Positions 5,449-30,732 of a stretch of DNA of 30,732 nucleotides are shown in pieces. Numbering within the stretch: the stretch's first letter is position 1; each line of letters opens with the position of its first letter. The notes under the pieces were generated by a model, which did no database searches, was not told the DNA's origin, and saw only the letters and a program-made list of their open reading frames with translations. Made by a program: the position numbers and the translations under genes. The DNA is from a virus, in IMG/VR virus record IMGVR_UViG_3300042691_025212, positions 1 to 30,732 of that record; one strand, given 5' to 3'.

Positions 5449-5931
5449 TTATATAGCTTCTTTAAAAAGATCTTGCTCATCATCACCCTGTGCACCTAGA
5501 GTATCTTTTCTAAAGAACTTACCAAGGATGTTTTCATTATATGAATCAACATGAAGTACTCTGTGTTCTATTTGCCAATAAACTTCGTAGTAGCTTAATT
5601 CTTTTTTTGAGTAACACACTCTAATTATTTCTCTCTTAAACTTATCCTTTCCTACAAGTTTTAACTCTTCTAATAGAGGTTTAGAACTACCGTAATAAGA
5701 TTCCCAATTACTCTCTTTAACTTCTTTTCTTTTCTTAGGTACCCTACCTGGTTTAGACCACTCTTCTGTTTCTTTTTTTGTAAGCTTTTTTGTAAGATTA
5801 TTTCTTAGGATCTTTTTTCCTATGTAAAATTTATCAGTGTCTATGTGAGTTATCTTGTAAACAAACCCAACTGCGAGAGGATCAAACTGATCTAATGTAA
5901 CTATCTGTTTTTCTTCATGTAACCAATTCAT
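5449..5931 (-). CDS. GIY-YIG family endonuclease, 160 aa
   Basis: The N-terminal GIY-YIG core is visible as GFVYKIT (22-28, Y25) and FYIGKK (35-40, Y36). It is followed by a Lys-rich insertion and the SNWESYYGSS motif (74-83), then KFKREIIRVC and a candidate metal-binding Glu near E116. This layout, with YYGSS after a basic insert, is the one seen in small endonuclease genes of T4-like phages. Such nucleases act on host DNA, competing phage DNA or as freestanding homing enzymes; which applies here is not visible. It is the last gene of the minus-strand block, one base after the preceding stop. Confidence 0.75.
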   Translation of the reverse strand: MNWLHEEKQIVTLDQFDPLAVGFVYKITHIDTDKFYIGKKILRNNLTKKLTKKETEEWSKPGRVPKKRKEVKESNWESYYGSSKPLLEELKLVGKDKFKREIIRVCYSKKELSYYEVYWQIEHRVLHVDSYNENILGKFFRKDTLGAQGDDEQDLFKEAI

Positions 5932-26664: not shown

Positions 26665-26837
26665 AATTGTTTCTTTAGACTGGGATCCCTGATCCTATTT
26701 AATTAAATAAAATATTGGATAAATATAAGGTTTTTTTCCGACATTTAAAAATAATTCTTTTTAGTAATATATAACTTAAATAATTACTAATTAGATTTAT
26801 TTTTTTTATTAAAATAAATTTGTTAATTTTAACTTAT
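26665..26837. promoter_or_regulatory. divergent intergenic region between structural block and replication genes
   Basis: This very AT-rich gap separates the minus-strand block (first ATG at 26664) from the plus-strand primase (ATG at 26838) and should hold promoters for both. On the minus strand TATATTTAT (26719-26727) resembles the late-motif core. Long T runs (26731-26737, 26800-26808) are present. No clear sigma-70 or middle (MotA-type) element was identified. Confidence 0.5.
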
Positions 26838-27767
26838 ATGGATAATAAATATTTTGTTCTTGGATTATTAGAATCTGTATTAGGTAAAGGAAAAAAAAGC
26901 AAAAACGATGATTACGATTTTTTTTGTCCTTTTTGTAAACATAGAAAACCTAAGCTAGTTGTTAACGTAACTAGTGGAATGTATAATTGTTGGACATGTC
27001 ATCCACATACTAAAGGAAGATCTCCAATTGCTTTATTAAAAAAGTTAAATGTTGATTCTAGTGTTATTTCTGAAATGAAAAACTATTTTAAGGATAACAC
27101 AAAAATTAAATTAGACCAAGACGTTCTTCATGCTGTATCACTTCCAAGAGAATTTATTGGTTTAGAAAATTGTGATGCTACTTTAAAATGTCGTCACGCA
27201 TTAGCATATTTAAATACTAGAGGAATAACTTTGCAAGACATAATAAAATATAACATAGGATATTGCGAATCAGGAAAGTATAAGGATAGAATTATTATTC
27301 CTTCTTATGACAAAGATTACAAACTAAATTACTTTATTGCTAGATCTATTAATGAAGAAGCGTTTCAAAAGTATGATGCGCCAAAATGTAAAAAAGCTGA
27401 AATAATTGGATTTGAGAATACAATAAATTGGGAAGTGCCAATTGTTCTTTGTGAAGGTGCGTTTGACGCAATCGCGGTAAAAAGAAACGCTATACCTTTA
27501 TTCGGAAAAACAATTCCAAAATCTATTATGATGAAATTGGCAATGACAAGCGTTAAGACAGTTTATCTTGCGCTTGATAAAGACGCAATATCTCAAGCAA
27601 TAGATAGCGCTGAACAACTTATGAAATTAGGTAAGGACGTATATCTAGTTAACTTACAAGAAAAAGATCCTTCTGATTTAGGATTTACAAAAATAACTGA
27701 ATTATTGCATTCAGCAAAGCAATTAACTTTCCAAACACTATTTGGAATAAAAATGGGAATGATATAA
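26838..27767 (+). CDS. 61: DNA primase, DnaG/gp61-like, 309 aa
   Basis: A zinc-binding N-terminus with CPFC (C30, C33) and CWTC (C51, C54; H55 adjacent) is followed by a toprim catalytic domain: LCEGAFDAIAV (E206) and YLALDKDA (D247, D249). Length is close to T4 gp61 (342 aa). The primase makes RNA primers for lagging-strand synthesis together with a DnaB-type helicase that is not in this window. The frame extends to a TTG at 26820, but the ATG at 26838 gives the better N-terminus (MDNKYFVLGLLESVLG). The fused recombination nuclease follows after nine bases. Confidence 0.85.
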   Translation: MDNKYFVLGLLESVLGKGKKSKNDDYDFFCPFCKHRKPKLVVNVTSGMYNCWTCHPHTKGRSPIALLKKLNVDSSVISEMKNYFKDNTKIKLDQDVLHAVSLPREFIGLENCDATLKCRHALAYLNTRGITLQDIIKYNIGYCESGKYKDRIIIPSYDKDYKLNYFIARSINEEAFQKYDAPKCKKAEIIGFENTINWEVPIVLCEGAFDAIAVKRNAIPLFGKTIPKSIMMKLAMTSVKTVYLALDKDAISQAIDSAEQLMKLGKDVYLVNLQEKDPSDLGFTKITELLHSAKQLTFQTLFGIKMGMI

Positions 27768-27776
27768 AGTAAAATT

Positions 27777-30732
27777 ATGGCACAAAATGTTAATAGGTTA
27801 GTTCATATCTCAGATATTCATTTGAGAAATTATAAAAGACATGCTGAATATAGAGAAGTTTTTGATTCTTTATATTTTTATCTAAAAAATACTCATACTA
27901 AAGATACATTAATTGTTTTAACCGGAGACATTGTTCATTCTAAAACTGATGTATCTCCTGAGTTATACCAAGAAGTTCAAGCTTTATTAACTTCTCTATG
28001 CGAAATAGGAAAAGTACTAATGATACCTGGAAATCATGATGCTAATCTAGCTAACTCAGATAGACTTGATGCTTTAACTCCAATAGTAAATGCATTAAAC
28101 CTAGATAACTTAATTTATTTTAAGGAAAGTGGTATAAAAACCGTCGGCAATGTTAATTTTTATCATTGGTCAGTGTTTGATAAAAAAGTAGATTATCCAA
28201 AAATATCTACAGCAGGTTATAATGTATGTTTATATCACGGTTTAGTTAACGCGGCAGTAAATGATTATGGATATGTAATGAAATCGGACTATATGAAAGC
28301 CGTAGATTTTTCTGGATTTGATTTAACATTACTAGGAGATATTCACACTAATCAGTATTTAAACGAGAAAAAAACTATCGCTTATCCTGGAAGTTTAATT
28401 CAGCAAAATCATGGCGAGTCAATAGATGGACATGGAATATTAGTATGGGACATAGAAAGTATGACATCTAATTTTGTAAAAATCCCAAATAAAACTGCGT
28501 ATTTTACAATTGATATAGAGAATGGTGTATGTCCTACTTTACCATCAAATTTACCTAAAAATTTGTATTTAAGAGTAAGACATAAAAATACTACTCACGA
28601 AGATTTAAAATCAATACTTAAAGAAATAAAAGAGAATTATAAATTAATAGAAATTTCTTCAGTAAAAATAAATGATTTTAAAAATAATTCACATGATACA
28701 TCTCAGACAAATGTAATAGATTTTAGAAACGTAGATTCTCAAAATGAATATATAAAACAATATTTTTCAGGATCATTAATGATTAGTGATGAAGAAATAA
28801 AGCAAATATGTGAAATAAATTCAACAATAAATCATAAGTTAATATCTTCAGAAGCTCCTAGAAATACTGTGTGGACACCAAAATATTTTGAATTTGAAAA
28901 TATGTTTGGTTATCAAAAAGGAAACTCAATAGACTTTTCAAACATGAAAGGAACCTATGGAATATTTGCTCCTAACGCATCAGGAAAATCTACATTTTTA
29001 GATTCAATAACTTACTGCATTTTTGATAAGTGTTCAAAAACAAGCAAAGCATCTGATGTAATGAACAACTTGTCTGATTCATTTCAATGTAAATTTGTAT
29101 TTGAATTAAATGGTAAGGAGTATACTATAGAAAGAAAAGCTAAGACACAAAGAGGAGGAAACATTAGAGTTGACGTTGATTTCTTTTATGTAGATGATAT
29201 AGGAGCTAAAGTATCTATGAATGGTAAAGAAAGAACTGACACTAACTTAAACATAAAAAAACTTTTAGGATCTTATGAAGATTTTATATTAACCTCTTTC
29301 TCTACTCAATCAGGGAACGCATCATTCATAGACATAAATCAACGAGAAAGAAAAGAGTTATTATGCCAATTTATGGACTTAAATGTATTTGAAGAATTAT
29401 ATAACTTAGCAAACGAAGAATCAAAAGAAATAAACATCCTATTAAAAGATTTACAGCGCGTTGATTGGCAAGATAAACATAAAATATCAGAGCAATGCGT
29501 ATCATCAATAAACAAAGACTTAGAAGAAACAATATTAAATAAGAATAACGTAAAGCATAATCAAGAATTAATTCAAGTTGATTTAGATTGTTTGCTTAGT
29601 AAAATATCTAAAATAGACGATAGTCTTATAAACTTTGACAAAGCAAAGTCTGAGCAAAGCATTACAAATATTAAAGATAAAGTAGTAGAGTATGATAATT
29701 TATTAACTGAAAAACAAGAAAAGTATTTTGAAATTAATAATCAACTTAGTGTTGATGAAAATAGTTTTAATCTATATGATAAAGAAACAATTAATAATGG
29801 AAAAATTGTTTTAGAAAAATTAAAAACACAGCATCAAAAGACAGTATTAAAGCTTAAGCAACTTGAGATAGAGAATAAAGGAATGCTTGACAAAATGGAA
29901 AAATTACAAGATTTAAAGTATGATGAATCTTGCGATTTTTGTATGAATAATATTTTTGTTAAAGACGCTATTGAAACTAAGAATAAAATAAGTGATCATA
30001 ATACCCAGCTAAAAATAGTTAACGTAGAAATAGAAGAACTTTTGCATAATATAGAGATATATTCAGAATTTGAGGAAGAAGAAAAAAAGTATAACGAGCT
30101 TGAAAAATTAATAGGAAAAAACAAACTTCATAAGTCGATACTAAGAAACTCTATTGACACTATTACAAGTGATAAAAAACAGGCATTAGCTAATATAGAT
30201 ACTATTACTAATAAAATTAACTTATTTGAATTGCAGTCTAATGTCATAGAAAGTAATAAACAGATAGAAAAATCAAGAGTTGAATTAAGTGATAAATTAA
30301 AAGCTTTAAAACGAGAAGAGGAAAGCCTAAACGAAAAGTATACAACACTACAAGTTAAAAAAGGAGCGTGTGTTAAAGATTTAGATGAATGCAAAGAATC
30401 AATACAAAAATTAACTGAATATGAAACAAAGAAAAAGTTATATCAGTGCTACTTAGAATGTATTCATAGAGACGGAATTCCTCATAAATTAATTTCAGAT
30501 ACTCTTCCACAAGTACAAGATGAAGTAAACAGTGTATTATCGCAACTCGTTGAATTCAGGGTGATTCTAACTACTGATCATAAGAATATTAATGGTTATA
30601 TTGCGTATTCTAAAGACAGATTCTGGGGTCTCGAGTTAGTTTCTGGAATGGAAAAGTTTATTGTATCTCTTGCGATTAGATCTGCATTAATTTCTATCTC
30701 TTCTTTGCCAAGACCAAACTTTTTACTTATCG
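27777..30732 (+). CDS. fused gp47-gp46 (SbcD-SbcC / Mre11-Rad50) recombination nuclease, 3' partial
   Basis: I read 985 codons without a stop from the ATG at 27777 to the window edge. Residues 1-345 carry the Mre11 phosphoesterase motifs: D13-x-H15, GDIVH (D51), GNHD (N86, H87), YHG (H154) and GDIH (H190). After a linker, an ABC ATPase half begins with Walker A APNASGKST at 398-406 (K404). A long coiled coil with a CDFC zinc hook (C719, C722) follows, then a signature-like SGMEK at 956-960 leading toward Walker B at the edge. In T4 these are separate proteins, gp47 and gp46, that resect DNA ends for recombination-dependent replication and degrade host DNA. Confidence 0.9.
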   Translation, partial: MAQNVNRLVHISDIHLRNYKRHAEYREVFDSLYFYLKNTHTKDTLIVLTGDIVHSKTDVSPELYQEVQALLTSLCEIGKVLMIPGNHDANLANSDRLDALTPIVNALNLDNLIYFKESGIKTVGNVNFYHWSVFDKKVDYPKISTAGYNVCLYHGLVNAAVNDYGYVMKSDYMKAVDFSGFDLTLLGDIHTNQYLNEKKTIAYPGSLIQQNHGESIDGHGILVWDIESMTSNFVKIPNKTAYFTIDIENGVCPTLPSNLPKNLYLRVRHKNTTHEDLKSILKEIKENYKLIEISSVKINDFKNNSHDTSQTNVIDFRNVDSQNEYIKQYFSGSLMISDEEIKQICEINSTINHKLISSEAPRNTVWTPKYFEFENMFGYQKGNSIDFSNMKGTYGIFAPNASGKSTFLDSITYCIFDKCSKTSKASDVMNNLSDSFQCKFVFELNGKEYTIERKAKTQRGGNIRVDVDFFYVDDIGAKVSMNGKERTDTNLNIKKLLGSYEDFILTSFSTQSGNASFIDINQRERKELLCQFMDLNVFEELYNLANEESKEINILLKDLQRVDWQDKHKISEQCVSSINKDLEETILNKNNVKHNQELIQVDLDCLLSKISKIDDSLINFDKAKSEQSITNIKDKVVEYDNLLTEKQEKYFEINNQLSVDENSFNLYDKETINNGKIVLEKLKTQHQKTVLKLKQLEIENKGMLDKMEKLQDLKYDESCDFCMNNIFVKDAIETKNKISDHNTQLKIVNVEIEELLHNIEIYSEFEEEEKKYNELEKLIGKNKLHKSILRNSIDTITSDKKQALANIDTITNKINLFELQSNVIESNKQIEKSRVELSDKLKALKREEESLNEKYTTLQVKKGACVKDLDECKESIQKLTEYETKKKLYQCYLECIHRDGIPHKLISDTLPQVQDEVNSVLSQLVEFRVILTTDHKNINGYIAYSKDRFWGLELVSGMEKFIVSLAIRSALISISSLPRPNFLLI

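Follow-up and report, generated by a model that had tools for sequence, protein, structure and literature searches.

Single-chain fusions of Mre11 and Rad50 were described by Yoshida, Claverie and Ogata in 2011 in Mimivirus R555, Bacillus phage 0305phi8-36, plasmids, bacteria and eukaryotes (PMC3175470). These authors estimated a linker of 9-12 residues that preserves the ordinary Mre11-Rad50 contact, and reported that R555 has an Asp in place of P. furiosus His206. They also found abundant homologues in aquatic viruses on scaffolds that also bear phage primases, with the environmental fusion confirmed in only a few long sequences (PMC3175470). In phage T4, as the original prediction for the DNA studied here correctly stated, gp47 and gp46 are encoded separately, with 46.1 and 46.2 between them. 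The gp46 and gp47 proteins have a role in DNA-end processing (PMC3175470).

Here, we analyze a fused Mre11-Rad50 (SbcD-SbcC) gene at the 3' end of a 30,732-base record classed as a virus record (the window, meaning this whole stretch). The encoded protein has the features of the 2011 fusions, namely one open reading frame (ORF) with an Mre11-like metallophosphoesterase in its N-terminal part and a Rad50-like ABC ATPase in its C-terminal part. This kind of fusion, whose 2011 publication the original prediction did not mention, thus gains a member, and the family of the window protein is very likely the aquatic one inferred at that time. We estimate at roughly 0.88 the probability that the gene encodes a single-chain phage SbcDC (Mre11-Rad50) that processes DNA ends, in a slot shared with an exonuclease of sister phages. 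The features of the locus are listed in Table 1.

Table 1. Features of the fused gene, its primase neighbor and the corresponding exonuclease of Flavobacterium phage immuto (coordinates are those of the window unless another record is named).
Feature	Position	Strand	Basis and remarks
DnaG-type primase, directly upstream	26820..27767	+	TTG start, ATG 26838 also possible; PHROG 47 (E 2.7e-47), CHC2 zinc finger
Fused Mre11-Rad50 (SbcD-SbcC) gene	27777..30731	+	ATG start, 985 codons, stop-free up to contig end 30732; Pfam, PHROG, relatives, AlphaFold2
Mre11/SbcD phosphodiesterase core, residues 1-235	27777..28481	+	Pfam Metallophos, PHROG 100, PDB Mre11 fold matches
Mre11 capping domain, residues 240-297	28494..28667	+	AlphaFold2 secondary structure; assigned by analogy to solved Mre11
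Two helices, residues 319-331 and 338-353 (helix-loop-helix)	28731..28835	+	AlphaFold2; putative role from T. maritima Mre11-Rad50 (PMC3175470)
Inter-subunit linker, residues 354-364 (11 aa)	28836..28868	+	AlphaFold2; near-constant spacing in 161 loci
Rad50/SbcC ATPase lobe I, residues 365-535	28869..29381	+	AAA_23, PHROG 77, AlphaFold2
Walker A APNASGKS, residues 398-405	28968..28991	+	Motif reading
Coiled coil, first arm, residues 536-710	29382..29906	+	AlphaFold2 helices
Zinc-hook motif CDFC, residues 719-722	29931..29942	+	Both Cys invariant in 59-sequence alignment
Coiled coil, second arm, residues 726-896	29952..30464	+	AlphaFold2
ABC signature VSGMEKF, residues 955-961	30639..30659	+	Motif reading
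Walker B start NFLLI, cut at contig end	30717..30731	+	Relatives go on mostly as NF(L/I)AIDEGF
PD-(D/E)XK exonuclease of immuto	L186:7369-8151 = NC_055915.1 105368-106150		PHROG 298

The original prediction held that one uninterrupted frame carries an Mre11 part followed by a Rad50 part, and this was confirmed by the ORF, by Pfam, by PHROG and by motifs read directly. The fusion and its parts stand; the framing as a T4 gene pair does not, the supposed constraint of a 1:1 fusion is weak, and the proposal of a lineage marker holds only in part. Neither a stop codon nor a frameshift occurs between residues 345 and 385, where an interruption had been suggested as a refutation. The contig end cuts the gene, which places the stop codon and ~70 C-terminal residues, with Walker B, the D-loop and the H-loop, beyond the window; complete homologues of about 1049-1066 aa indicate what is missing at the C-terminus, and Walker B is found in complete relatives.

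Both Pfam matches exceed the cut-off (Metallophos at residues 7-136 and AAA_23 at 374-583), and the profile search that had been proposed gave an SbcD-type match (PHROG 100, residues 3-345) followed by an SbcC-type match (PHROG 77, residues 267-935). The Mre11 metal-binding motif set (D-x-H, GD, GNHD, H, GxxH) is present, with DIH at 13 (D13/H15), GDIVH at 50 (D51), GNHD at 85 (N86-H87), H154 and GDIH at 187 (D188/H190), and the core motif residues are kept in 59 relatives in an alignment. One metal-motif His is replaced by Asp (D188), as reported for R555, and this residue is invariant in 59 of 59 aligned sequences, the window included. On the Rad50 side, Walker A, a CxxC hook between the coiled-coil arms and the ABC signature were all read directly in the window protein, and every relative long enough to include the hook region has one CxxC.

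An AlphaFold2 monomer model built from the 59-sequence alignment had a pLDDT of 81.9 and a pTM of 0.44, a value at which the relative placement of domains is not reliable and was not used. In the model, a disordered stretch (residues 301-312) separates the cap from the two helices, which are followed by the 11-residue linker and then the first Rad50 strand, with lobe I beginning at 365; the signature helix is also present after the coiled-coil arms. The modeled helices match the Rad50-binding helix-loop-helix of Mre11, and the linker is within the published range of 9-12 residues. Canonical Mre11-Rad50 complexes are already M2R2. The argument that a fixed 1:1 fusion constrains the architecture of the complex is therefore weak, as a linker of this length fits the ordinary contact. 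Among viral fold matches, fused proteins of giant viruses ranked first (Tupanvirus, E 1.7e-63, 24% identity) and fused proteins of phages next. The best PDB matches included Mre11 chains from Mre11-Rad50 complexes, and the PDB matches contained no solved fused chain; a single-chain Mre11-Rad50 would be convenient for structural work.

The fusion prevails across a large group of aquatic viruses and is nearly constant in form. A scan with four fused proteins as queries found at least 537 relatives, ranked in a way that favors long matches, and both parts were in one ORF in all 80 loci fetched. A second scan used the Mre11 part alone as a check on this bias; 76 of 79 new loci were fused and the remaining three stop at a contig end, so all 76 testable loci carry the fusion. 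Two scans anchored on the primase, described below, served as a further check on the same bias. Comparison of linker length across relatives, as had been suggested, revealed near-constant spacing between the two profiles in 161 loci: the distance was 18-22 residues throughout, and exactly 20 in 82 of 85 loci of one set and in 66 of 76 of the other. With contigs that were fetched twice taken once, the fusion is fixed in about 150 distinct IMG/VR contigs, among which no split Mre11/Rad50 gene pair was found. This extends the few environmental sequences of 2011, and the fusion is not a quirk of assembly and not confined to the phage of the window. Several individual loci deserve mention. At L076:7490-7494, the frame breaks in the coiled coil between the hook and the C-terminal lobe, which reflects either damage to the gene or an error in sequencing. 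In a 484-kb phage (LR756508.1, L005:5671-6588), the fused gene is broken within the Mre11 domain, just past the GDIHK motif, by a Cys-rich ORF of 305 aa that looks like a homing endonuclease; an Rfam search of the interrupted gene gave no intron or other match. Three contigs binned as Nitrosopelagicus, Chloroflexi and Gammaproteobacteria (L090, L091, L092) carry the phage-type gene and are probably viral contigs in these bins.

In a FastTree phylogeny of the concatenated Mre11 and Rad50 parts, in which the long-branch rows L006, L004 and L002 are unsurely placed, the window, the viral contigs, Microcystis phage Mel-JY01, a 735-kb phage and the PAU-type phages group together as a single clade of fused genes (support 1.0). 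The two-gene pairs of T4, T5 and Herelleviridae fall outside this clade, and the window gene does not group with T4-like gp46/gp47. The original description of the gene as a fused T4 gp47/gp46 pair is therefore not upheld; T4 is an analogy rather than the parent lineage, and a poor reference. Vibrio phage 150E35-1 (L100:3959-7123) also has the two parts fused, in a protein whose annotation reads only "coil containing protein". It falls outside the main fused clade, at an exact place that is poorly supported, and probably represents at least one further, independent fusion event.

The primase upstream of the fused gene is a conserved neighbor that anchors a nuclease slot. It precedes the fused gene in 153 examined fused loci, and in nine more its placement upstream or downstream is not clean. 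The closest cultured relative of the window by primase and structural proteins is Flavobacterium phage immuto, which is absent from the Mre11-Rad50 matches and in whose genome neither Mre11 nor Rad50 was found. Directly behind its primase, which is 44% identical to that of the window, the same slot holds immuto_2-6A gp090, a 260-residue PD-(D/E)XK exonuclease (PHROG 298) of unrelated nuclease fold. We examined 80 loci in each of two primase-anchored scans, one led by the window primase and the other by the immuto primase, with some contigs in both. The window-primase scan yielded 45 loci with the exonuclease, 25 with the fused gene, seven with Mre11 parts cut by contig ends and three with neither, and the immuto-primase scan yielded 77 with the exonuclease and three too short to tell. 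The PHROG-298 exonuclease thus holds the slot in immuto and more than 110 further loci. Neither scan contained a locus with both modules together or with a split pair, although most of the metagenome records behind this exclusivity are incomplete. Consistent with this, among 21 large records, the 10 of the exonuclease type reach E 3.1e-43 or better against PHROG 298 and lack the fused protein, and in the 11 of the fused type PD-(D/E)XK matches are weak (E 1.4e-6 or weaker) or absent. A search of exonuclease-type records with PHROG 77 and PHROG 100 found no credible Mre11-Rad50. Two loci (L227 and L249) lack both the fused nuclease and the PHROG-298 exonuclease up to 5 kb from the primase, and a third slot state may exist. 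A literature search found no paper on this slot exchange.

The slot state tracks the primase tree, with two changes on 131 primases compared to at least 25 in shuffles. Under a better model, the window's fused group is nested in exonuclease-bearing phages (SH-aLRT 91-98), which would mean a change from fused to exonuclease and back to fused, and the fused proteins of this group cluster as a clade among other fused proteins. The AU test rejected neither a single exonuclease-type clade (p 0.097) nor a single fused-type clade (p 0.084), so that the history calls for one replacement or more, with a second only suggested. We do not claim the tree-favored reversal from exonuclease to fusion in the window's lineage, as the AU test allows simpler histories. 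The position and mutual exclusivity of the two nucleases suggest that they are interchangeable end-resection modules, and the exonuclease, judged by its family membership, presumably does the same job as the fused nuclease. We lean toward a scenario in which, in a large group of aquatic phages with T4-like baseplate proteins, two unrelated, mutually exclusive end-resection modules swap with each other in the slot behind the DnaG-type primase, the fusion makes Mre11-Rad50 one exchangeable cassette, and the fused form may have returned in the window's lineage. This exchange limits the fusion as a lineage marker, the use originally proposed for it: close relatives with Mre11-Rad50 all have the fusion, but other close relatives have the PD-(D/E)XK exonuclease in the slot instead.

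There is a negligible chance that the fusion stems from an error of assembly or sequencing, or from a frameshift joining neighboring genes in one contig. Such joins may exist, as in Listeria phage LMTA-57 (L009:3001-6030), where the gene is annotated as one 1009-aa exonuclease and groups with the split Herelleviridae genes, and the junction looks like a read-through of two genes. However, the same ORF with the same spacing recurs in ~150 independent contigs and in the isolate Mel-JY01, which rules out this explanation for the window. It is quite improbable, too, that an internal start or cleavage of the linker yields two proteins in vivo and thus an ordinary two-subunit enzyme. Four in-frame start codons are present near the junction (residues 335, 365, 376 and 390), but the stretch checked for an internal start, residues 326-420, contains no good candidate. 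Only one of these codons, at residue 335 within the helix-loop-helix, shows any AGGA match, and this match is weak; other starts in the genome lack a clear Shine-Dalgarno motif and have A-rich leaders. Met376 is within a conserved NMFxY stretch, and starting there would drop the first Rad50 strand; the conserved spacing of the junction also argues against separate products.

We infer that a single-chain SbcDC would most likely resect and tether DNA ends. Two chains would dimerize via their Mre11 cores and, with ATP, via their Rad50 heads, with the helix-loop-helix of each Mre11 half resting on the Rad50 coiled-coil root, where the linker would permit it to seat without altering the usual M2R2 shape, and with the coils joined via the CxxC hook. 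The complex would make 3' single strands from DNA ends for recombination-dependent replication and repair, like T4 gp46/gp47. A literature search found no biochemistry for any fused phage protein. The main job could instead be host-DNA degradation, defense or counter-defense, since T4 gp46/gp47 are annotated as also degrading host DNA and SMC-like Lamassu proteins are among the PDB fold matches. We consider this unlikely: the gene adjoins a primase, its domains are those of a complete Mre11-Rad50, and the Mre11 fold matches are stronger than those to Lamassu. The exchange with a PD-(D/E)XK exonuclease likewise supports end resection as the service of this locus. A 260-residue exonuclease appears able to replace a 1050-residue ATP-driven machine, and the exchange provides a natural experiment that asks whether end resection is all that Mre11-Rad50 is needed for.

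A Bacteroidota host is plausible, given the start-site leaders of this genome and a closest cultured relative that infects Flavobacterium. Rfam and tRNA scans of the window found nothing. The gene at 5449-5931(-) has the PHROG 447 label "NAD synthetase", a name also found near the primase in the immuto annotation, and Pfam identifies it as a SegE-type GIY-YIG endonuclease (92 bits). The former name is probably a propagated misannotation of this family.

Several known systems resemble this locus in part. The closest is Mel-JY01, for which a literature search found no paper; its protein (WWT39521.1) has the same fusion, at 37.9% identity over 97% of the query, and is complete at 1066 aa, with the annotation "AAA domain containing protein" leaving the fusion unmentioned. 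Its primase neighborhood is as in the window, but with one small ORF in between. Sphingomonas phage PAU gp288 and the proteins of Tenacibaculum phages PTm1/pT24 and Chryseobacterium phage MA9V are fused and in the same clade, but are ~1300 aa long and have other gene neighbors. Mimivirus R555, Tupanvirus A0A6N1NVE8 and the proteins of Harvfovirus, Yasminevirus and Catovirus likewise have Mre11 and then Rad50 in one chain; these best viral fold matches are 20-24% identical, come from eukaryotic viruses and have longer chains (~1215-1389 aa). The Asp at the position of P. furiosus His206 in R555 corresponds to D188 here, a likeness drawn from the published description of R555 rather than from an alignment. 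T4 gp47 and gp46, T5 D12 and D13, and Herelleviridae SbcD and SbcC provide the same two activities from two genes in a separate clade, and in Herelleviridae a related primase lies downstream of the split pair, at a distance of about one gene, compared to upstream of the fused gene in the window.
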